64,000 bases of DNA. It comes from Deltaproteobacteria bacterium (GTDB lineage: Bacteria; Desulfobacterota; Binatia; UBA1149; JAJCZL01). The position numbers were made by a program, and so were the translations under genes. The notes beneath the pieces were generated by a model that worked only from the letters and a program-made list of their open reading frames with translations, did no database searches and was not told the DNA's origin. This document shows, piece after piece, positions 8,958-57,717 of the stretch; the first letter of the stretch is position 1, and each line of letters starts with the position of its first letter. Location: positions 1 through 64,000 of the forward strand of contig JAJCZL010000078.1 in assembly GCA_029262415.1 (NCBI GenBank), given 5' to 3'.

Positions 8958-10571
8958 ATGTGGTCGATCGGGAACAGAACTGTGTCGCGGGGGGTCGTGG
9001 CTGCGCTCCTTATGGCGGCGCTGGTTTTTCAGTCTCCGGCGGCGTACGCGTTCGAATTCCGGACCATAGACGGCAGCGGGAACAACCTGGCCGACCCCGC
9101 AATGGGGGCGGCTGGTACGATGCTGATCCGGCGTATGACCAACGCTTACGGCGACGGTGCCTCCTCGATGGGGGGCGCGCACCGCGCGGGCGCTCGTGAG
9201 GTTAGCAATGCGGTCTGCATGCAGACCGCTGACTCTCCCAACGCTGCCGGCGCGTCGGATTTTCTCTGGCAGTGGGGGCAGTTCCTCGACCACGACATCG
9301 ACCTGACCGAGTCGGCCACACCCGTTGAGTCGGCTGATATCCCGGTGCCGATGGGTGATCCGTTCTTTGATCCCGGTTCGACCGGACTGGCGGTGATCGG
9401 GTTCAACCGCTCCGGGTACGATCGCACGATGGCTGCTCAGACAGGGATGCGCGAGCAAACCAACGGCATCAGTGCATGGATTGACGCTTCCAACGTCTAT
9501 GGGTCCGACCGCGAGCGCGCTGCCGCTCTGCGTACCAACGATGGTAGCGGCCGGTTGAAGATGACCGAGTCCGGACTGCTGCCGCGGAACACCGCCGGTT
9601 TGCCAAATGCGGGCGGACCCGGCGCTAATCTGTTTTTGGCCGGCGACATCCGTGCCAACGAACAAGTTGGCTTGACGACAATGCACACGCTCTTCGTAAG
9701 AGAGCACAATCGGATCGCCGGGCTCATCGCCGATGCGAGTCCGCAGATGAGTGGAGAGGAGGTCTACCAGCGCAGCCGACGAATCGTTGGCGCGTTGATG
9801 CAGGTGATCACCTACCGCCAGTACTTGCCGACGCTGTTCGGCCGCGGCCGTATGTCGGTGTCCCGGGGGTACAAGCCGGCGAGGCGCGCTGCGATCATGA
9901 ACGAGTTTTCGACCGCGGCCTACCGTTGGGGCCATAGTGCTCTCAGCCCGCAGCTGTTACGCTTGGACGCCCTTGGCAACGAGATCGCCGAGGGACACCT
10001 GGCTTTGCGCGAAGCATTTTTCGCCCCGCATCGGATCACGGACGAAGGTGGCATCGAACCGATACTGCGCGGGCTCGCGAGCCAGAGGTGTCAGGAAGTC
10101 GATGCGATGATCGTCGACGACGTGCGGAACTTTTTGTTCGGACCCCCCGGCTCGGGCGGATTTGATCTCGCCTCGCTTAACATCCAACGTGGTCGTGACC
10201 ACGGGTTGCCGTCGTACGACGATGCCCGTGCAGCTATCGGGCTTAAGCGCGTCGGATCGTTTGGCGACATTACCCGCGATCGCGAAATGCAGGAACGGCT
10301 CGCCTCGGTTTACCGTGCGCCGGAGGATGTCGATCTGTGGGTAGGATTGCTCGCTGAAGATAAACTGCCGCGTTCGCTCGTCGGGCCGCTTGCTTATCGG
10401 ATGATGCGTGAGCAGTTTGAGGCTCTTCGTGACGGTGACCGTTTGTGGTGGCGGCGCGAACTGACCAAGCCGGAGCGCCGGATGGTCCGAGGCACTCGGC
10501 TATCAGACGTCATCCGGCGTAACACCTCGATCGATCGGGAGATCCGGCGCAACGTCTTTCGCGCGCATTGA
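8958..10571 (+). CDS. Exported animal-type haem peroxidase
   Basis: A 537-residue protein of the peroxidase-cyclooxygenase (animal haem peroxidase) superfamily. It starts with a Sec signal peptide (hydrophobic VVAALLMAALVFQ, cleavage after AYA). WGQFLDHDIDLTE carries the distal His with adjacent Ca-binding Asp, LFVREHNRIA is the conserved catalytic region, and YRWGHSAL holds the proximal His. LNIQRGRDHGLPSY is another family signature. These enzymes use hydrogen peroxide to oxidise halides, phenols or other substrates, here presumably in the periplasm or outside. I chose ATG 8958 over an in-frame ATG at 8928 because the signal peptide then has normal length. Physiological substrate is unknown. 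Confidence 0.9.
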   Translation: MWSIGNRTVSRGVVAALLMAALVFQSPAAYAFEFRTIDGSGNNLADPAMGAAGTMLIRRMTNAYGDGASSMGGAHRAGAREVSNAVCMQTADSPNAAGASDFLWQWGQFLDHDIDLTESATPVESADIPVPMGDPFFDPGSTGLAVIGFNRSGYDRTMAAQTGMREQTNGISAWIDASNVYGSDRERAAALRTNDGSGRLKMTESGLLPRNTAGLPNAGGPGANLFLAGDIRANEQVGLTTMHTLFVREHNRIAGLIADASPQMSGEEVYQRSRRIVGALMQVITYRQYLPTLFGRGRMSVSRGYKPARRAAIMNEFSTAAYRWGHSALSPQLLRLDALGNEIAEGHLALREAFFAPHRITDEGGIEPILRGLASQRCQEVDAMIVDDVRNFLFGPPGSGGFDLASLNIQRGRDHGLPSYDDARAAIGLKRVGSFGDITRDREMQERLASVYRAPEDVDLWVGLLAEDKLPRSLVGPLAYRMMREQFEALRDGDRLWWRRELTKPERRMVRGTRLSDVIRRNTSIDREIRRNVFRAH

Positions 10572-10603
10572 CCCAAGCACGGCACCGGACAACAATCGTT
10601 CGC

Positions 10604-10804
10604 ATGAGCCGAAAAGTCATAGTCGATTTCGATCTTTGTGAAGCCAACGCCGTGTGCATGGCTGCAGCGCCGGAGATATTCAAAGTGGACGACGAGGACC
10701 TCCTGCACCTGTTGACGGAAACCATCCCCGACGATCTGCAGACCAAGGCCGAAAATGCCGTACGCATGTGCCCCCGCCAAGCGATCAAGATCGTCGAAGA
10801 ATAG
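10604..10804 (+). CDS. Small 3-Cys ferredoxin, probably [3Fe-4S]
   Basis: A 66-residue ferredoxin starting at ATG 10604. It has Cys12-x5-Cys18 and a C-terminal Cys56-Pro. The fourth cluster Cys of [4Fe-4S] ferredoxins is replaced by Ala (LCEANAVC), a pattern typical of [3Fe-4S] ferredoxins that feed cytochrome P450 or other oxygenases. It begins 32 bases after the peroxidase gene. No P450 is in the window, so its partner is unknown. A longer reading frame from a TTG at 10568 is possible but overlaps the peroxidase stop. Confidence 0.88.
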   Translation: MSRKVIVDFDLCEANAVCMAAAPEIFKVDDEDLLHLLTETIPDDLQTKAENAVRMCPRQAIKIVEE

Positions 10805-10824
10805 AAACGCGCGTAAACACTGCG

Positions 10825-11847
10825 ATGGGTGCGGCGACGCAAGCGGGGCGGTGGACGAAGGCGACCGACAAGCGTCTGCTCAAGGTGAGGCTTTGCGATC
10901 TCGGTCTCCAGATCGAGGGGTCTTGGCTGGAGCAGCCGCTGCGGCGCGTCGAGCTTGAACTCGAAGCCAAGGGTATACGCTTCAAGCCTCACTACTGGCT
11001 CTCCGGCGAATGGTTCTCTCCTGACGGCGTGCCGGGGGTCGCTATCCCTTTCTTCCTCGCCGATTCCCGCCTGATGCGACTCGAGAAGAAACAAATGCTC
11101 GAGATCGAGGGGGCGACACGGTCGCAGTGCCTGCGTTTTCTCCGGCATGAGGTTGGCCACGCCGTACAACACGCCTATCTGTTGCACCGTCGCCGCCGCT
11201 GGCAGCAGGTCTTTGGTAGCTCCTCGCGCCGCTACCCGGATGCGTACAGGCCGAATCCGGCCAGCCGCAACTATGTTCTCCATCTTGACTATTGGTACGC
11301 GCAGGCGCACCCCGACGAGGATTTTGCCGAGACGTTTGCGGTGTGGCTGGCGCCGGGCTCTGCATGGCAGAAGCGCTACAAGGGATGGCCGGCGCTACGC
11401 AAGCTTGTCTACGTCGACGAGTTGATGGCCGGCCTCGCCGGCAAGCCTGCGCGGGTTCGCAGCCGCCGAAAGGTCGATCCATTGAATCGGCTGACCGAAA
11501 CCCTCGGGGAGTACTATGACTCAAAGCACGCGCGCTTCGAATCGCTGACGACCAACGTCTACGACGCCGATTTGCGCCGCCTTTTCGCGGGCGAGGCCGG
11601 CAAGGGGATTGCAGCGTCGCAGTTTCTACACCGCAGCCGCGCGCGGGTGCGACGCATGGTCGCGGCTGGAACGGGACGGCACGAATACGCCGTAGACCTA
11701 CTCCTCAAAGAGATGATGAAGAGGAGCCGCGAGCTCGAATTGCGCACGGCCGCCGACCCTGACGACCTCGTTGTGCGGTTGGCGATCCTACTGGCTGCGC
11801 GATCGGTTGAGTATCTTTACAGGGGGCGGGAATGGCACGCGATGTGA
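10825..11847 (+). CDS. Putative zinc-binding metallopeptidase (Peptidase_Mx-like)
   Basis: A 340-residue cytoplasmic protein with the zincin motif HEVGHAVQHAY near residue 110, where two His bind zinc and Glu is the base. PDEDFAETFAVWL about 60 residues later probably gives the third ligand, Glu. The overall pattern matches the uncharacterised putative zinc-binding peptidase group. The C-terminal third is rich in Arg and Lys and helical. No signal peptide. I chose ATG 10825 because the upstream part of the open frame overlaps the ferredoxin gene. The ATP-grasp gene follows after 37 bases, so the two are likely cotranscribed and functionally linked. Confidence 0.8.
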   Translation: MGAATQAGRWTKATDKRLLKVRLCDLGLQIEGSWLEQPLRRVELELEAKGIRFKPHYWLSGEWFSPDGVPGVAIPFFLADSRLMRLEKKQMLEIEGATRSQCLRFLRHEVGHAVQHAYLLHRRRRWQQVFGSSSRRYPDAYRPNPASRNYVLHLDYWYAQAHPDEDFAETFAVWLAPGSAWQKRYKGWPALRKLVYVDELMAGLAGKPARVRSRRKVDPLNRLTETLGEYYDSKHARFESLTTNVYDADLRRLFAGEAGKGIAASQFLHRSRARVRRMVAAGTGRHEYAVDLLLKEMMKRSRELELRTAADPDDLVVRLAILLAARSVEYLYRGREWHAM

Positions 11848-11884
11848 TTCGTGAAACGGACGAGGGCGAGGCGCCGTCGACGCG

Positions 11885-12898
11885 ATGAAGTCATTGCGCG
11901 TCATGGTGCTCGTCCATTACCAGTTGGTTCCTCCTGACACGCTCAAGGGCCTCAGCGAGGCGGAAGCTTACGATATCAAAACGGAGTTCGATGTCGTCGA
12001 TACGCTGCGTCGCATCGGACACGACGTGCACGTGCTCGGAGTCGGCGACGAAATACGGCCGATCCGCCATGCGGTGACGGAACACAAACCCGACGTGGTC
12101 TTCAACCTGCTCGAAGAGTTCGACGGCAACACGGCCTTTGATCATCACGTTGTCTCCTACCTCGAATTGCTTGGTGTCGCCTACACCGGCTGCAATCCAC
12201 GCGGCCTGGTCATTTCTCGCGATAAAGCGTTGTCAAAGAAGCTGTTCGCATACCATCGGATTCCGACGCCGAAATTCGCCGTGATCAGAACGGGGCGTAA
12301 GGTAAAGGTTCCGAAGGCGCTCAGTTATCCGCTGATCGTAAAGTCGCAGATCGAGGAGTCCTCACTTGGGATTGCCAAGGCGTCGGTGGTTGGTGACGAA
12401 GAACAGCTTATCGAGCGCGTCCGCATCATCCACGAACGCGTCAAAACCGACGCATTGGTGGAGGAGTTCGTCGAGGGGAGGGAGGTTTATGCGGGGTTGA
12501 TTGGCAACCACCGTCTCACCGTGTTGCCGCCGCAGGAGCTTGTCATTTCAGGGCTTGCCGAGGGGGAGTTCCTCATCGCGACCGAGAAGGTCAAGCACGA
12601 CCGCGGATACCAGGAGCGGCACGGGGTCGACATCAAGCTGTTCGATGGCCCACCGGAGCTCCTGCGAACCCTCGAACGTTTGGCCAAGCGGGTGTTTCGC
12701 GTTCTCCAGTTGAGCGGCTACGCGCGTGTCGATTTCCGGCTCGACGCCGACGGTATGCCCTTCGTATTGGAGGCCAATCCAAACCCGGAGATCGCCCGTT
12801 CTGAAGAAGTCTCCACTTCGGCCGAAGCCGCGGGGTTGAGCTACGAAGAGCTGATCCAGCGTATCGTCAACCTGGCCATGCAGCGTGCGGTTCGGTGA
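11885..12898 (+). CDS. ATP-grasp ligase of the D-Ala-D-Ala ligase family
   Basis: A 337-residue ATP-grasp enzyme. It has an N-terminal pre-ATP-grasp domain (DVVFNLLEEFDGN), the LGVAYTGCNPRGLVISRDKALSKKL region, the ATP-binding VKSQIEESSLGI loop, EEFVEGREVYAGL, and the metal-binding end YARVDFRLDADG and LEANPNPEIA. Ddl enzymes have a similar layout, but the final motif has PNPE where Ddl has N-x-x-PG, and no peptidoglycan genes adjoin. It more likely joins some other amino acid or peptide. The pairing with a Zn-peptidase suggests synthesis and cleavage or processing of one small peptide-like product. Substrate unknown. Confidence 0.82.
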   Translation: MKSLRVMVLVHYQLVPPDTLKGLSEAEAYDIKTEFDVVDTLRRIGHDVHVLGVGDEIRPIRHAVTEHKPDVVFNLLEEFDGNTAFDHHVVSYLELLGVAYTGCNPRGLVISRDKALSKKLFAYHRIPTPKFAVIRTGRKVKVPKALSYPLIVKSQIEESSLGIAKASVVGDEEQLIERVRIIHERVKTDALVEEFVEGREVYAGLIGNHRLTVLPPQELVISGLAEGEFLIATEKVKHDRGYQERHGVDIKLFDGPPELLRTLERLAKRVFRVLQLSGYARVDFRLDADGMPFVLEANPNPEIARSEEVSTSAEAAGLSYEELIQRIVNLAMQRAVR

Positions 12899-49283: not shown

Positions 49284-50222
49284 ATGCACACTGCTGACGT
49301 AACGCGCCTGCCGCCTTGGGTGGCGAACAAAACCGGACTCCTCGGTCCCGGCAACGACCTTAAGCGCCGTCTGCGCCGCGCAAAGCTCGTCACGGTGTGC
49401 GAAGAGGCGCGCTGCCCGAACCTCGGCGAGTGTTTCAGCCGCGGCACCGCCACCTTCATGATCCTTGGCGACACCTGCACCCGTCGGTGCGGTTTCTGTT
49501 CGGTCAAAACCGGTCGTCCGTCGGCGCCCGAAGCCGACGAGGCGAATCGTATCGCCGAGGCCGCCGCTGTGATGGGATTGCGTTATGTGGTGCTCACTAC
49601 GGTCGCCCGCGATGATCTCGAAGACCAAGGAGCAGGGCAGTTCGCACGTTGTATCTCCGCGCTTCGCACGCGCATTCCGTGGGTTGAGGTCGAGGTGCTC
49701 AGCGCAGATCTTGGCGGCAGATGCGATCTCATCGGCCGCGTCATCGAGGCGCGGCCCGAGGTGTTCGGCCACAACGTGGAAACCGTCCGCCGGCTTACAC
49801 CCTCCGTGCGCGGTCGCGCCGGCTACGAAAGATCTTTGCAGGTGCTACACACGGCAGGTCTACTAGCCGCAAATCTCGACGACGGCCGCACGCAGGTTAA
49901 GACCGGTTTGATGGTCGGGCTCGGGGAAACCAGAGCCGAGATCAGCGAGACGCTCGCCGAAATACACGCGACCGGCTGCTCGCTGCTGACGGTTGGGCAG
50001 TACCTGCGACCGACGCGAGAGCAGATGCCTGTCGATCGCTACGTGGAGCCACGCGAATTTGATGAGATCGCGGTTGAGGCGCGCGAGATCGGGTTCAAAG
50101 AGGTCGCTTCAGGTCCCTTGGTGCGGTCGTCGTACCGCGCCGATCGTCTGTTCGCTGCAGCTGCGGCTGCAGCGCCGTCAGCGGCTGCTGCTGCGACGGA
50201 CAACACGGGAGCGGCGGGCTAG
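49284..50222 (+). CDS. lipA: Lipoyl synthase
   Basis: A 312-residue radical SAM enzyme that inserts two sulfurs into octanoylated lipoyl domains. [13 protein letters not shown] holds the auxiliary-cluster Cys and CTRRCGFC the radical SAM cluster. [22 protein letters not shown] (part) and [16 protein letters not shown] are family signatures. The C-terminus has a low-complexity Ala-rich tail (last 25 residues) not essential to the fold. ATG start at 49284. Confidence 0.96.
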
Positions 50223-50310: not shown

Positions 50311-51495
50311 ATGTCAACAGAGTTCAAACGAATGCAGCGCCTGCCACCCTACGTGTTCAACGTAGTCGGTGAGCTAAAACAGCAAGCTCGCCGCAGAGGC
50401 GAGGACATTATCGACTTCGGGATGGGTAATCCCGACGGCGCTACTCCTGCGCACATCGTGGCCAAAGCCGACGAGGCGTTGCACAAGGCCAAAAACCACC
50501 GCTACTCGGTTTCGCGCGGCCTATACAAGCTGCGCCTTGCCGCCACCGCTTGGTACCAGCGTAAGTGGAATGTCGATCTCGACGCCGACACCGAAATGAT
50601 CTGCACCATGGGAGCGAAAGAGGGGCTTGGCCATCTGGTGCTCTGCGTGATCGGGCCAGGCGACTCAGTGTTGTGTCCGTCGCCGACCTATCCGATCCAT
50701 CAGTATTCGGCGATCATAGCGGGCGGCGATCTTCGTCACGTGCCGCTCATCCAAGGCGAAGACTTCTTTCAGTCGCTCGTCGATTCGATGCGCGACGCAT
50801 GGCCGAAACCGAAGCTGCTGATCATCAGCTTTCCCTCCAACCCGACCACTGAAGTGGTGACTCTGGAGTTCTTCGAAAAGGTCGTCGAGTTTGCGCGTGA
50901 ACACGAACTGCTGGTGATCCACGACAACGCGTACGCGGAGTTAACCTTCGACGGTTACGAAGCGCCGAGCTTTTTACAGGTGCCGGGTGCGCGCGAAGTC
51001 GGGGTGGAGATCTACACGCTGTCGAAAACCTACAATATGCCCGGATGGCGTATCGGATTTGTTGCCGGCAACAAAGAAATGATTGCTGCGCTATCGCGTC
51101 TGAAGTCCTATTACGACTACGGTATGTTCGCGCCGATCCAGGTTGCGGGGATCGAGGCGCTGAACGGACCTCAGGACTGTGTCGCCGATATCTGTGAGAT
51201 CTACAGGCAACGGCGCGACGACTTGGTCCGCGGGCTCGGGCGCATCGGCTGGGACGTCGCGCCGCCGAAGGCGACGATGTTTGTATGGGCGCAGATCCCC
51301 GAGGAGTTCCGCGCCTTGGGGTCGCTCGAGTTCACCAAATTGCTATTGAAAGAAGCCAAGGTTGCGGTGTCTCCTGGTATCGGCTTCGGACCCTACGGCG
51401 ATGACTTCGTACGCTTCTCGCTGATCGAGAACGACCATCGCACACGGCAGGCGATACGCGGAATTAAGAACGTACTCGGTGGGGCGGGGGCATAA
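50311..51495 (+). CDS. alaC: Aminotransferase, AlaC-like (glutamate-pyruvate type)
   Basis: A 394-residue class I/II PLP aminotransferase. It starts [21 protein letters not shown], close to E. coli AlaC, with [25 protein letters not shown] and [13 protein letters not shown] bind PLP, and [15 protein letters not shown] carries the Schiff-base Lys. AlaC makes alanine from pyruvate. Its place just before hom might instead mean a role in aspartate-family synthesis. ATG 50311 has GGAGGA six bases upstream. Confidence 0.88.
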
Positions 51496-51497
51496 AG

Positions 51498-52832
51498 ATG
51501 GTGGCGCGGAAAAAACAGGTAGGCGTCGGTCTGATCGGCTTCGGCACGATCGGAACCGGTGTGGTGAAGATCCTGCGCGACCACGCGCGTGACATCGAGG
51601 CTCGTCTCGGCGCGCAACTAAAACTCGTGCGCATCGCCGATCTCGACACCCGGACAGATCGCGGCGTGCGTATGGATAAGGGCGTGCTAGGTAAGGACGC
51701 GCATGGCCTGATCGACGACTCTCGCGTCGATGTCGTGGTCGAACTCATCGGCGGCACCGAGCCGGCGAAGTCATTCATTACGCGCGCTTTGCTGCAGGGC
51801 AAGGCTGCGGTGACCGCGAACAAGGCATTGCTCAGTGTGCACGGGCTCGAGCTCGCCAAGATCGCAGAAAAACACGGAGCGTTGCTCGGCTACGAGGCCA
51901 GCACCGGCGGTGGCATTCCGATCATCCGCAGCATCCGCGAGGCGCTGGCCGGCGACCGTAACCGCGAGGTCTACGGGATCGTCAACGGCACCGCCAACTA
52001 CATTCTCTCGCAGATGACCAAGGGTGCCGGCAGCTTCGACGAAGTACTGGCGCGCGCGCAAGCGATGGGGCTGGCCGAAGCCGATCCGACATACGACGTT
52101 GACGGCATCGACTCGCTGCACAAGCTGGCAATTCTTGTCGCCGTAGCCTTCGGGAAGAAAATCAACCCCGCACGGGTTCACGTCGAAGGGATTCGCCACA
52201 TCAGCACTGCCGACATCGCCTATGCCACTGAGTTTGGCTACACGATCAAGCTGCTCGCCGTTGCCCGTGACACCCCGGTTGGGGTCGAGGCGCGTGTGCA
52301 CCCGACGATGGTGCCCAACTCGCATCTGCTATCGCAGGTCGGCGGGGCGTTCAATGCCATCGCTTTGCAAGGCGACGCGCTCGGTACCTCACTCTACTAC
52401 GGCCAAGGGGCCGGCATGATGCCGACCGCGACCGCAGTGGTTGCCGATGCGATCGACGCTGCACGCTGCGTTTTGGGGCACCGGGCGCCTTCGGTACCGC
52501 CGTTTGGGCGGCCTGCGCGCGAAATTCGTGTCGCCAAGGTGCTACCGATGGCCGATTTGGCCCATGAGCATTACGTTCGCTTCAAGCTCGCGGATAAGCC
52601 CGGAGTTTTGGCGAAAATTACCGCTATACTGGCCAAGGAAGAGATCGGGATTGCCACTGTCGCACAACACGAAGAGCGCGCCGTGCGTGGTGCTGTGCCG
52701 GTGGTGATCCGCACGCACCGGGTCGTCGAGGGCGCGCTCAAACGGGCCCTTAACCGCATCGACGTGCTGAAGGACTGCCGTGCCAGGCCGGTGTCGATCC
52801 GAGTCGAAGAAAGATTGGGAGAACGAAACTGA
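51498..52832 (+). CDS. hom: Homoserine dehydrogenase
   Basis: A 444-residue enzyme that reduces aspartate semialdehyde to homoserine. VGLIGFGTIGTGVVKIL binds NAD(P), VNGTANYILSQMT and GLAEADPTYDVDGIDSLHKL are the catalytic region with the key Asp and Lys. A C-terminal ACT domain (FKLADKPGVLAKITAILAKE) suggests feedback by threonine. It starts two bases after alaC. Confidence 0.97.
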   Translation: MVARKKQVGVGLIGFGTIGTGVVKILRDHARDIEARLGAQLKLVRIADLDTRTDRGVRMDKGVLGKDAHGLIDDSRVDVVVELIGGTEPAKSFITRALLQGKAAVTANKALLSVHGLELAKIAEKHGALLGYEASTGGGIPIIRSIREALAGDRNREVYGIVNGTANYILSQMTKGAGSFDEVLARAQAMGLAEADPTYDVDGIDSLHKLAILVAVAFGKKINPARVHVEGIRHISTADIAYATEFGYTIKLLAVARDTPVGVEARVHPTMVPNSHLLSQVGGAFNAIALQGDALGTSLYYGQGAGMMPTATAVVADAIDAARCVLGHRAPSVPPFGRPAREIRVAKVLPMADLAHEHYVRFKLADKPGVLAKITAILAKEEIGIATVAQHEERAVRGAVPVVIRTHRVVEGALKRALNRIDVLKDCRARPVSIRVEERLGERN

Positions 52833-52833
52833 A

Positions 52834-53886
52834 ATGAGTTGGGCCGGAGTAGTCGATCAATACCGCGCGCGATTGCCCGTGGGTGACACGCAGGCGGTGA
52901 CCTTGCACGAGGGCAACACGCCCTTGATAGAGGTACCGCAATTGGCGCGCGAGATCGGGCTCGACGCCCGCGTGTTTGTGAAGTACGAAGGCTTGAACCC
53001 GACCGGGTCCTTCAAAGACCGCGGCATGACGGTTGCGATTACGATGGCGGCAGCCGCAGGTTCGCGCGCCGTGATCTGCGCGTCGACCGGTAACACCTCT
53101 GCCGCTGCCGCGGCCTACGCCGCGCGCGCCGGCATGAAGGCTTTTGTGATTGTCCCCGAAGGAAAGATTGCGCTCGGCAAACTCTCGCAGGCGTTGATGC
53201 ACGGAGCGCAAGTTCTCGAGGTTAAGGGCGGCTTCGACGAGGCGTTCGAAGTTGTCTCTGGTGTTGCCGAGGCGCGGCCCGTCACGGTCGTCAACTCGAT
53301 CAACCCGTATCGTCTGCAAGGCCAAAAGACCGCGGCGTTCGAGATCTGCGATACGCTCGGGCGGGCGCCCGATTTCCACATCTTGCCGGTCGGCAATGCC
53401 GGCAACATCACCGCTTATTGGATGGGCTACAGCGAGTATCACGACGAGGGGATCACCTCCTCGCGACCGCGAATGATGGGTTTCCAGGCTGCCGGCGCAG
53501 CCCCGATCGTAGAAGGCAGGCGCGTTGAGAAACCCGAAACCGTGGCTTCTGCGATTCGTATCGGCAACCCGGTTAGCTGGAAACAGGCCGAGGCTGCGCG
53601 TGATGAATCGGGTGGAGCGATCAATGCAGTCACCGATGAGAAGATTCTCGACGCCTACAAGTTGCTGGCCGCCACCGAAGGAGTCTTCGCAGAGCCCGCC
53701 TCGGCAGCCTCGATTGCGGGACTCATCGCACTCCATGAGGAGAAGGTCATCAGTGCGGGTGCGACCGTTGTATGCACGCTGACCGGCCACGGACTCAAAG
53801 ACCCGACCACCGCCATCGACGTCAACGGCGGGTCGACCAAGATTCCCGCCGACGTCGCTACGGCCATCAAGGTCATGGGCCTCTAG
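52834..53886 (+). CDS. thrC: Threonine synthase
   Basis: A 350-residue PLP enzyme that makes threonine from O-phosphohomoserine. The NPTGSFKDRGM motif holds the PLP Lys, ASTGNTSAAAAAYAARAG is the phosphate-binding loop, and LPVGNAGNITAYWMGY is conserved. The 350-residue chain is of the shorter type. ATG 52834 is preceded by GGGAGAA; the longer open frame upstream overlaps hom. Confidence 0.95.
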   Translation: MSWAGVVDQYRARLPVGDTQAVTLHEGNTPLIEVPQLAREIGLDARVFVKYEGLNPTGSFKDRGMTVAITMAAAAGSRAVICASTGNTSAAAAAYAARAGMKAFVIVPEGKIALGKLSQALMHGAQVLEVKGGFDEAFEVVSGVAEARPVTVVNSINPYRLQGQKTAAFEICDTLGRAPDFHILPVGNAGNITAYWMGYSEYHDEGITSSRPRMMGFQAAGAAPIVEGRRVEKPETVASAIRIGNPVSWKQAEAARDESGGAINAVTDEKILDAYKLLAATEGVFAEPASAASIAGLIALHEEKVISAGATVVCTLTGHGLKDPTTAIDVNGGSTKIPADVATAIKVMGL

Positions 53887-53961: not shown

Positions 53962-55173
53962 ATGAAGTACGTAGTGATCCAGGGCGACGGGATGTCGGAC
54001 TTTCCCGTCGAGTCACTCGGAGGGCTTACCCCTCTCGAGAAAGCCCACACGCCAAATCTTGATCGACTGGCCGCCGAAGGCCGCTTCGGGCTGGTGCGCA
54101 CTATTCCCGTGGGACTTCCGCCGGGCACCGATGTCGGTACGATGTCGATTCTCGGCTACGACCCAAGCAAGTTCCACACCGGCCGTTCTCCGATCGAGGC
54201 CGCGAGCATGGGGATCGATCTGGCCGACGACGATGTCGCATTCCGCTGCAACCTGATCACACTCGACGGCGAAGGTGACGCGGCGGTGATGAACGACTTT
54301 ACCGCCGGCCACGTGAGTTCAGGGGATGCGTCTGAGATCATCGGCGCGCTCGAGGATGGGCTCGGTGGCAGCGACGTCGAGTTCCATCCCGGCGTCAGCT
54401 ATCGCCACTTGATGGTATGGCACGGCGGTGAAGCGGCGATGGCAACGACGCCTCCCCACGACATCACCGATCAGAAGGTCCTGCCACATCTCGCCTCCGG
54501 CAAGGGCAGCGAACGGCTCCACGAGCTGATGACCGCAGCGCGCAAGATCATAAAGGGGCACCCGGTCAATGATCGGCGGGAAGCACGCGGTGAGAAACGC
54601 GTAACCGATATCTGGCTTTGGGGTCAGGGGCGCCGTCCGTCCATACCGACGCTGACCGAACGCTACGGTCTGCGTGGCGGTGTAATCACCGCCGTCGATG
54701 TCGTCGCTGGGCTTGGTCACCTGGCCGGGTTTGAGCGTATCAACGTTCCCGGAATCACCGGCTTCGTCGACACCAACTTCAAGGGTAAAGGTGAGTACGC
54801 CTTGAACGCACTCGAGAAATTCGATCTCGTCTTCGTCCACGTCGAGGCCCCCGATGAGTCCGGGCATATGGGTGACGCAGACCTTAAAGTGAAATCGATC
54901 GAAGAACTCGACGAGAAGGTTATCGGTACGATTTTGAACGGCATCGACCGCTACGGCGACTGGGTGATGATGGTATTGCCCGACCACGCCACCCCGGTTT
55001 CGACTAAGACCCATTCGGCGGATCCGGTTCCGTTCGCTATAATGGGCTCCAGCGAGGCGGTGGGAAGCGGACACGCATACGGCGAACGTGAGGCCGTGTC
55101 GACGGGCGTACTGATCGACGACGGATATACCTTGCTCGACCGTTTCCTCAGCAACACGTGGAAAGAAATCTAG
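53962..55173 (+). CDS. ApgM-family protein, proposed alternative homoserine kinase
   Basis: A 403-residue member of the alkaline-phosphatase superfamily, ApgM (archaeal cofactor-independent phosphoglycerate mutase) branch. VIQGDGMSDFPVESLGG binds metal, GTDVGTMSILGYDPSKF holds the catalytic Ser region, HVEAPDESGHMGD and LPDHATP give further ligands. This subgroup near threonine genes matches the family described as proposed homoserine kinase. hom and thrC lie immediately upstream and no classical thrB is in the window, which supports that role. Phosphoglycerate mutase activity remains the alternative. Confidence 0.75.
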   Translation: MKYVVIQGDGMSDFPVESLGGLTPLEKAHTPNLDRLAAEGRFGLVRTIPVGLPPGTDVGTMSILGYDPSKFHTGRSPIEAASMGIDLADDDVAFRCNLITLDGEGDAAVMNDFTAGHVSSGDASEIIGALEDGLGGSDVEFHPGVSYRHLMVWHGGEAAMATTPPHDITDQKVLPHLASGKGSERLHELMTAARKIIKGHPVNDRREARGEKRVTDIWLWGQGRRPSIPTLTERYGLRGGVITAVDVVAGLGHLAGFERINVPGITGFVDTNFKGKGEYALNALEKFDLVFVHVEAPDESGHMGDADLKVKSIEELDEKVIGTILNGIDRYGDWVMMVLPDHATPVSTKTHSADPVPFAIMGSSEAVGSGHAYGEREAVSTGVLIDDGYTLLDRFLSNTWKEI

Positions 55174-56114
55174 CCCTAGAACTGTGCCGCGTTACCGAAG
55201 CTGCAGCCCTGGCCGCTGCGCGCGAGAACGGACGTGGTGATGAGATGGCGCCCGAGCGCGCTGCCGTCGAAGCCATTAAGCTGGTGTTCGATACCATCGG
55301 GGTACGCGGCCGGGTGGTTGTCGGCGGCACTCAGTACGGCGATGAGCTAGCTGTCGGCCACGACCTCGGTGGTCCCGACGCACCTCACGAGGCCGACATC
55401 GCCGTCAACGCGGTCGAGGGCGGTATCAGTTGCGCTCTAGGCGGGCCGAATGCGATGTCGGTGATGGCGCTTGCGCCGCGCGGTGGTTTTCTGAACTGCC
55501 CGCCCAACACCTATATGGAGAAGATCGCGACCGTCGGCGTCGCTGCTGGCGAGGTAAGCCTCGATAAGAGTCCGGCCGAAAATCTCAAGGCCTTGGCCAA
55601 GCTCAAGGGGGTCTACGTCGAAGATCTGACGGTGGTCATCCTTGACCGTCCGCGTCACGACAGCTTGGTAGATGCCGTGCGCACCGCCGGCGCGCGCGTC
55701 AAGCTAATTCCCCACGGGGATGTAGCTGCAGCGATGGCCGCTGCCCGTGATGACTCGGGTGTCGATCTACTGATGGGCACAGGGGGTTCGGCGCAGGGCG
55801 TTCTTTCGGCTGCAGCAATCAAGTGTATGGGTGGCTTTATGCAATGTCGCTTCCGGCCGCGCAGTCAGGGAGAAGCCAACGCGCTATACGCCTGTGGGGT
55901 GAACGACGTCGATGTCATTCTCGACAGCGAAGCGATGGCTCAAGGAAGCGTCCTGGTCGCGGCGACCGGTGTGACCGACGGTGAATATCTGCGCGGGGTT
56001 CGGTTCTTCAAAGGGGGCGCGACCTCCAACTCGGTGGTCATGCGCTCGGCGAGCGGCACCGTGCGTCTTTTAGACACCCGCCACAAGTTCGACTACCGAC
56101 CTGACTACAAGTAA
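55158..56114 (+). CDS. GlpX-like protein with degenerate active site
   Basis: A 318-residue full-length relative of class II fructose-1,6-bisphosphatase (GlpX). The scaffold is well kept: LALELCRVTEAAALAAAREN, TVVILDRPRHDSLVDAV, GDVAAAMAAARDD and ATGVTDGEYLRGVRFF. Compared with E. coli GlpX, the catalytic and metal residues are changed: Lys29 to Glu, Asp33 to Glu, Glu57 to Gly, Asp85 to Asn (residue 84) and Glu213 to Gln. Only Glu88 (residue 87) stays. It is not interrupted, so it seems to be selected for another role. GTG start overlaps the ApgM gene by 16 bases. Confidence 0.8.
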   Translation: MERNLALELCRVTEAAALAAARENGRGDEMAPERAAVEAIKLVFDTIGVRGRVVVGGTQYGDELAVGHDLGGPDAPHEADIAVNAVEGGISCALGGPNAMSVMALAPRGGFLNCPPNTYMEKIATVGVAAGEVSLDKSPAENLKALAKLKGVYVEDLTVVILDRPRHDSLVDAVRTAGARVKLIPHGDVAAAMAAARDDSGVDLLMGTGGSAQGVLSAAAIKCMGGFMQCRFRPRSQGEANALYACGVNDVDVILDSEAMAQGSVLVAATGVTDGEYLRGVRFFKGGATSNSVVMRSASGTVRLLDTRHKFDYRPDYK

Positions 56115-56402: not shown

Positions 56403-57530
56403 TCAATTGCCAGCGCCGTCGAAGAAGTCCTTGAAGCCGGCGGGCAGATAGGGTCCGATACTTACCTGCTCGAGTACGCCGATGCCGGTTTGTCTCCCGT
56501 CGCTTGCTCGCACGACTTGTTGCACGTGTAGATTCATCGGCGCGAGCATGTCGAGCGCCTTCGGGTCGAACGATTCGTGTCCGGTCGCCAACTCGCCTTT
56601 CCACATCCCTTGGCCCCACTCGGGATGGGAGTATCCCAGGCCCTTCATCTGGAACTTGAGAATCGGCTCAAGCGCGATCGTGCGGGTATCGCCGTTAAGA
56701 CAGATCAGGTCGATCTCGGCAGATGCGGCCAGCCGTGTCCCCTGTACGTAGGTAATGCGATGGTGCGCAGTCGCCATGCGCTCGTCGCGCCCGTCTTGCA
56801 CACCAGGAATCTCAGTTTCGGTTGCGTAGAGTGGGGCTACAAGTGCCTCTCTGACCAGCGCGTTGCCGCGTTCGCCGTCAAAGAAGATTGCATGTGAGAT
56901 ATGGTCGTCCCAGAACAGCGGAGCCCACAAGAAGAACATCCCGTCCGGACGCGCCGGCGCGCCCCCCGTTTCCGGCTCTCCGACGCGACGCACACCCCAA
57001 GATCGATCCTTGGTGCCGCGGCAAACCTCATCGTCTACTTTAATCTCTCCGTCGGGATGACTGACGACACCGCTCCAGCGGCCGAACTGGTCGAACCGCG
57101 TTGCGTCCATTACGCGGCGCGCTCCCGACCAGAGCATCTGCCGCGCCTCTTGAATCGAAGCCGTTCGTGCCGAGAAGGTGAGGTCGCATGAGATGCCGCT
57201 TTCGTTGTCGTCCAAGATCACCCGCGTTCGGCGCATCGGCTCGACTACCTCGATACGGAGCGGGCCGACCCGCATGTCGGTGCGTTCACTCGGCGCGCGC
57301 CGCGAACCGAAAAAGCAGTGTTGCCGCGAATCCGGCTCTACGACACTGAACGCACCGTCCAAGATGCCGCGATGCGGATACACGGCCATTCCGACTGCGA
57401 AGTAGTAAGAGCCGTCCGCGGCGTAACCGTTGAACCAGGTACGATCATAAGCGTTACGATCGCTCGTCTGAGGATGGGCGAGCGGCTCGGGCGTTTGATG
57501 AACAGGGAAGTCATCTAGCTTGTTAAGCAT
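56403..57530 (-). CDS. Uncharacterised protein, possible lipocalin-like (CrtC/AttH-type) fold
   Basis: A 375-residue cytoplasmic protein without signal peptide. YAADGSYYFAVGMAVYPHRG, DRSWGVRRVG and WAPLFWDDHISHAIFFDGERGN are the clearest conserved-looking segments. The alternating strand pattern over two halves resembles the double lipocalin fold of hydroxyneurosporene synthase relatives. It may bind or modify a lipid. ATG 57530 is used, with GAGGA 8-9 bases upstream. Enoyl-CoA hydratase lies upstream on the same strand. Function not assigned. Confidence 0.7.
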   Translation of the reverse strand: MLNKLDDFPVHQTPEPLAHPQTSDRNAYDRTWFNGYAADGSYYFAVGMAVYPHRGILDGAFSVVEPDSRQHCFFGSRRAPSERTDMRVGPLRIEVVEPMRRTRVILDDNESGISCDLTFSARTASIQEARQMLWSGARRVMDATRFDQFGRWSGVVSHPDGEIKVDDEVCRGTKDRSWGVRRVGEPETGGAPARPDGMFFLWAPLFWDDHISHAIFFDGERGNALVREALVAPLYATETEIPGVQDGRDERMATAHHRITYVQGTRLAASAEIDLICLNGDTRTIALEPILKFQMKGLGYSHPEWGQGMWKGELATGHESFDPKALDMLAPMNLHVQQVVRASDGRQTGIGVLEQVSIGPYLPAGFKDFFDGAGN

Positions 57531-57717
57531 TGGCAATCCTCGATGTGTATTCTCGTAGGTAGGTAGCTGGAGCACGGTGAGGTGGCCGAGCTGCCGCAAC
57601 TCGATCGGGAGCGCGTCAGTGTCGTGCTCGCGGATGATAGCAGGTGGTCGGGGCTACGCTGTCCGTCGTCAGCTTCCGCGACTTGAAGGTCGTAGCCGGT
57701 CGAACCGGCAGCGCGAA

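Follow-up and report, generated by a model that had tools for sequence, protein, structure and literature searches.

Some relatives of metabolic enzymes are known to be catalytically dead. For instance, HisZ is a catalytically dead relative of tRNA synthetases that activates HisG in histidine synthesis. SuhB, which has the inositol monophosphatase fold, is part of the rRNA antitermination complex (PDB 6tqn), which is a non-catalytic use. In a literature search, we found no dead enzyme relative that was derived from GlpX and none that was tied to threonine synthesis. (Nor did we find anything on point about glpX together with homoserine kinase, hom, or pseudoenzymes.)

GlpX is the class II fructose bisphosphatase (FBPase), and structures of it have been described (PMC5892879). 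The T89A form of GlpX from F. tularensis and the T84A form from M. tuberculosis are completely inactive; the T84S form from M. tuberculosis retains part of its activity (PMC10289334). R164 and R166 lie in the region that holds the 6-phosphate of the substrate (PMC10289334).

The window is the whole stretch of DNA that we analyzed (64,000 nucleotides from a genome of the Binatia). It contains lipA, an aminotransferase, hom, thrC, and apgM in a row on the same strand, with a relative of GlpX as the last gene. We use "Q-type" for a GlpX relative with glutamine at position 213 and "intact" for one with E213 and the catalytic residues, both in the E. coli numbering. The genes are:

49284-50222, + strand: lipA, lipoyl synthase, the upstream neighbor (TIGR00510, 350 bits)
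50311-51495, + strand: PLP aminotransferase (name inferred; the same neighborhood is seen in many Binatia)
51498-52832, + strand: hom, homoserine dehydrogenase (NF004976, 495 bits)
52837-53886, + strand: thrC, threonine synthase (TIGR00260, 323 bits; probable start inside the open reading frame at 52780-53886)
53962-55173, + strand: apgM, "proposed homoserine kinase" (TIGR02535, 505 bits, cut-off 446.3)
55158-56114, + strand: Q-type GlpX-derived putative pseudoenzyme (318 amino acids, GTG start, no internal stop)
56403-57599, - strand: Rv3169-family protein of unknown role, downstream

The GlpX relative matches PF03320 from Pfam over its full length (348 bits), and it fails TIGR00330, the NCBI equivalog model for GlpX (248.3 bits vs. 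a cut-off of 259.3 bits). A first-pass annotation had the coordinates of this gene and its clean frame right, as well as its 16-base overlap with the apgM reading frame. A sequencing error or a pseudogene is ruled out by the conservation of the frame across Binatia. Among the matches listed from Binatia genomes, the GlpX relatives have no internal stops.

We then compared the active-site residues, using E. coli GlpX and 83 intact GlpX relatives for the alignment and the numbering. (The E. coli sequence is consistent with the E. coli GlpX chains that we matched in the PDB.) The sites of interest in the window are:

55254-55256, + strand: E33, in place of the metal ligand D33 (E in 12 of 13 from the window's order; D in 83 of 83 intact)
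55326-55328, + strand: G57, in place of the metal ligand E57 (E in 0 of 13 from the window's order and in 83 of 83 intact)
55407-55409, + strand: N84, in place of the metal ligand D85 (N in 6 and D in 7 of 13 from the window's order; D in 83 of 83 intact)
55422-55424, + strand: G89, in place of the essential threonine T90, the nucleophile (T in 83 of 83 intact)
55647-55658, + strand: R164-P165-R166-H167, the 6-phosphate pocket, kept (R164, R166, and H167 each at least 95% conserved in Q-type and intact proteins alike)
55713-55715, + strand: H186, in place of D186 of the sugar-binding DGD motif (H in 13 of 13 from the window's order)
55794-55796, + strand: Q213, in place of the metal ligand E213 (Q in 60 of 60 Q-type sequences; E in 83 of 83 intact)

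The metal ligands D33, E57, D85, E88, and E213 read E, G, N, E, and Q in the window's protein, so E88 alone is retained. The first-pass annotation had reported D33E, E57G, D85N, and E213Q, and our alignment to E. coli GlpX gives the same four changes. It also counted K29E as a loss. That change is present, but residue 29 varies among intact GlpX (E in 35, R in 19, K in 19, and N in 7; n = 83), so it is not a loss. Conversely, it overlooked the change of T90 to glycine, which is the worst of the losses. Its statement that almost all of the catalytic and metal residues are gone is correct for D33, E57, D85, and E213 but is too strong overall, as E88, R164, R166, H167, D188, and Y119 are kept. 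Across the Q-type proteins, residue 90 is alanine, glycine, serine, proline, valine, or aspartate, with threonine in one case. Position 213 is the sole alignment column with a fixed difference between Q-type and intact proteins. The DGD motif, which contacts the furanose hydroxyls, has become HGD in all 13 genomes of the window's order.

The rest of the protein is predicted to be a normal GlpX. The AlphaFold model (mean pLDDT 92.1, pTM 0.91) matches solved GlpX chains with Z of 43-46, rmsd of 1.6-2.3 Å, and 37-44% identity (one older entry has Z of 36). The matches, which Foldseek also finds, include the T84A mutant, so the model agrees with the first-pass annotation's claim of an intact fold. 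Compared with the class II FBPases of E. coli, M. tuberculosis, and F. tularensis, the window's protein would thus have the same fold from end to end, with the same 6-phosphate pocket, E88, D188, and Y119. It differs from them in T90 and four metal ligands, in its score against TIGR00330, in its place in a threonine operon, and in having another FBPase elsewhere in the genome. SuhB (PDB 6tqn) belongs to the same broad fold superfamily, but it is only distantly similar (Z of 11 against the model) and has different partners.

GlpX relatives are present in 133 of 148 Binatia genomes. (The family assignments of many of these genomes rest on codes, namely f5, f11, f12, f14, and f17.) We read the key residues in 105 + 24 of these genomes; the other four have partial matches. 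Q213 is found in 105 genomes (51 and 54 in two sets), all of them outside f5 and f17, while all 24 genomes with E213 and T90 are from f5 and f17. In family f14 (G033 and G120-G127), the GlpX relative is absent from 9 of 9 genomes, some of which are 98-99% complete, so the gene is dispensable somewhere. In a maximum-likelihood tree that was built without the active-site stretches, the 47 Q-type sequences form one clade (support 100/99), and its sister is a group of five intact sequences from f5 (100/98); f17 sequences were not part of this tree. Because the Q-type proteins are monophyletic even with the active-site columns dropped, the clade is not an artefact of convergent active sites, and one loss at its base is enough.

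The GlpX relative is kept by strong purifying selection: dN/dS is 0.02-0.15 between close pairs, and 59 positions are invariant across 25 sequences. As is characteristic of a pseudoenzyme, essential residues (T90 and E213) have been lost and the gene is under purifying selection. In other phyla, we noticed three GlpX proteins (L118, L147, and L161) in which the nucleophilic threonine has changed (LEGAR, LEGAT, and LESID) and E213 is retained; these are possibly independent losses of the nucleophile.

The first-pass annotation linked the GlpX relative to threonine synthesis, and the neighborhood bears this out. In all 99 Q-type copies with a usable upstream flank (about 1 kb or more of sequence on that side), hom, thrC, or apgM lies beside the gene on the same strand. 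Second, intact copies of GlpX lie beside a threonine gene at just 1 of 14 loci. (The exception, L059 on contig C13 of G028, adjoins a hom gene.)

However, this linkage does not by itself demonstrate a new role, because the neighborhood of hom and glpX is older than the loss. Three groups with intact GlpX have it. In f5 and f17, intact GlpX lies 3' of apgM or hom; it shares with the window's gene the slot of the operon after apgM. These proteins, of which the f5 group is the sister clade, differ from the window's protein in having all of the catalytic residues. In alphaproteobacteria and in Myxococcota (Kofleriaceae and Anaeromyxobacter), intact GlpX adjoins hom on the same strand (L139, L146, L156, L138, L143, and L125), again with active sites that are intact. 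So membership in the operon may be inherited, and the argument for a new role is the persistence of the gene in the operon without catalysis, not the neighborhood itself. The neighborhood also raises the question of why hom and glpX are neighbors in several phyla.

Our best explanation, to which we assign a probability of roughly 45%, is that the gene encodes a pseudoenzyme, derived from a class II FBPase, with a sugar phosphate as its ligand and a modulating effect on threonine synthesis. An ancestor of Binatia would have had a working GlpX in its threonine operon. Our data show that E213 and T90 were lost where a single large clade begins, and with them, very probably, FBPase chemistry, while another FBPase carries gluconeogenesis. 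In the window's order, further metal ligands were then lost, but the gene did not leave the operon and is under strong purifying selection. We infer that the protein could still bind a phosphorylated sugar (or a similar ligand) via the 6-phosphate pocket that it kept, and that, as an oligomer, it might modulate an enzyme of the threonine pathway, most likely homoserine dehydrogenase. That Hom is the direct target is a guess from adjacency, as it is the most constant partner. HisZ would work in a similar way, as a relative of an enzyme that now serves an amino acid pathway as a regulatory subunit, but its fold is unrelated and the partner is hypothetical in our case. More specifically, the FBPase scaffold might have become a sensor of sugar phosphates that sets the flux through the threonine branch in most of Binatia. 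This seems unlikely to us, but if true, it would link sugar synthesis directly to the synthesis of the aspartate family of amino acids.

The second round of loss bears on whether any chemistry remains. Among Q-type sequences from outside the window's order (n = 47), D33 is retained in 46, E57 in 43, D85 in 47, and E88 in 46. Judging from these residues, those proteins may still have one metal site, and since the four residues are mostly kept, a one-metal reaction is possible there. In the 13 genomes of the window's order, D33 and E57 are gone from 13 of 13 and D85 is gone from 6. Ten residues that are specific to this order are invariant or nearly so within it. They include the active-site positions 33 and 186, and also 92 and 95, which are within the phosphate-binding helix that begins at T90 or adjacent to it. 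From the alignment, the active site in this order looks rebuilt rather than decaying.

These ten new residues might instead belong to an enzyme with changed chemistry, which would transfer or hydrolyze phosphate on another substrate from the aspartate family. The pocket may still take a phosphorylated substrate, one metal site seems to be kept in most of the class, and the invariance of Q213 suggests a positive role for it. But the residue at the nucleophile position varies freely (A, G, S, P, V, or D). In the window's order, D33 and E57 are gone from all genomes and D85 from some, yet the gene remains in the same place and under selection. Mainly because the metal site was lost in a second stage and the gene was not, we prefer a non-catalytic role, which this further loss seems to favor. 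We consider changed chemistry to be doubtful, but it deserves to be taken seriously.

If the Q-type proteins are not FBPases, then which protein is? We surveyed FBPases in 58 of the 148 Binatia genomes, including 51 with a Q-type protein. Every one of the 51 has another FBPase: 25 have class I, 23 others have a second GlpX, and 3 have class V. The catalytic residues are intact in 24 of 24 second copies of GlpX from this set. In contrast, just 1 of the 5 genomes from f5, with the intact type, has another FBPase (G040, class V), and in the other four we found no class I, class V, or second GlpX. A caveat is that f5 is a single clade, so these five genomes are not five independent tests. We found no class III FBPase in the six genomes that we tested for it. 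The first-pass annotation suggested checking whether the genome has another intact glpX. We found no other GlpX in the window's genome, and this genome encodes a class I FBPase (on contig C25) that is full length, looks intact, and has the DPLDGSS motif. Because most genomes from the window's order lack a second GlpX, we also rejected the idea that the Q-type protein is a partner subunit of a second GlpX.

The claim that the window's protein cannot be an ordinary FBPase is thus well supported: the nucleophile is lost, E213Q is found in 105 of 105 genomes, another FBPase is found in 51 of 51, and the Q-type proteins form one clade. It is very unlikely that the window's protein is an FBPase. Weak activity on fructose bisphosphate or sedoheptulose bisphosphate (FBPase/SBPase), with the part of the threonine taken over by serine, water, or another residue, would be in keeping with the conserved fold and sugar pocket. 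T84S of M. tuberculosis GlpX is partly active (PMC10289334), and many of the proteins from f12 have S90. However, the f12 genomes with S90 that we tested carry a class I or class V FBPase, the window's protein has a glycine, and in two species the change from T to A abolishes all activity (PMC10289334). Given also that E213 is gone from every Q-type protein, we consider weak activity to be improbable.

Another potential role, given the overlap with apgM in the window, is in the phosphorylation of homoserine. Neither ThrB nor ThrB_alt is above its cut-off in any of 58 Binatia genomes, so the Q-type protein might be the kinase, a phosphotransferase, or a subunit of ApgM. But ApgM (in 28 genomes) and ThrH (in 31) replace each other almost perfectly across the 58 genomes, which supports the annotation of ApgM as the kinase. 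Both are present in G019 and G038 only, where ApgM is below the cut-off, and G052 (L091 and L174) is the sole genome with neither. This annotation fits with the literature, where BT2402, an ApgM-like protein, is presented as an alternative homoserine kinase (PMC9765024). The GlpX relative co-occurs equally with ApgM or with ThrH. Since these two fill the step almost exclusively, and alternate while the gene stays, we rejected the GlpX relative as the homoserine kinase, and any part in this phosphorylation is highly improbable. Similarly, the first-pass annotation's emphasis on homoserine kinase is not supported, because genomes that lack ApgM and use ThrH for this step retain the gene just as well. 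In G052, we found neither ApgM nor ThrH, and no ThrB or ThrB_alt above the cut-off, to account for this step.

Finally, the gene might have no function of its own and be a translational or structural relic of the operon, as the loss of catalysis and its complete absence from f14 might suggest, but with a dN/dS of 0.02-0.15, no stops among the matches listed, and 59 invariant positions in 25 sequences, there is very little chance of this.

Whatever its function, the Q-type gene comes with a clear before and after: the intact type in the same slot, one loss, a second loss, and replacement FBPases. This makes it directly testable what survives when catalysis goes. Also, over 100 such genes may be called FBPases by automatic annotation.

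We made two other observations about these operons. First, the hom genes of f5 (L035, L054, L057, L088, L190, L200, L205, and L236) are of a distant type, with 33-36% identity and a stem branch of 1.91, as if hom had been replaced in place. There is no strict coupling between the type of hom and the type of GlpX, as f17 and groundwater metagenome-assembled genomes have the usual hom with an intact GlpX. Second, genes for enoyl-CoA hydratase and methylmalonyl-CoA mutase adjoin the operon in two distant families of Binatia (L056:6935-9497; L080:4206-5819 and 9564-12355).
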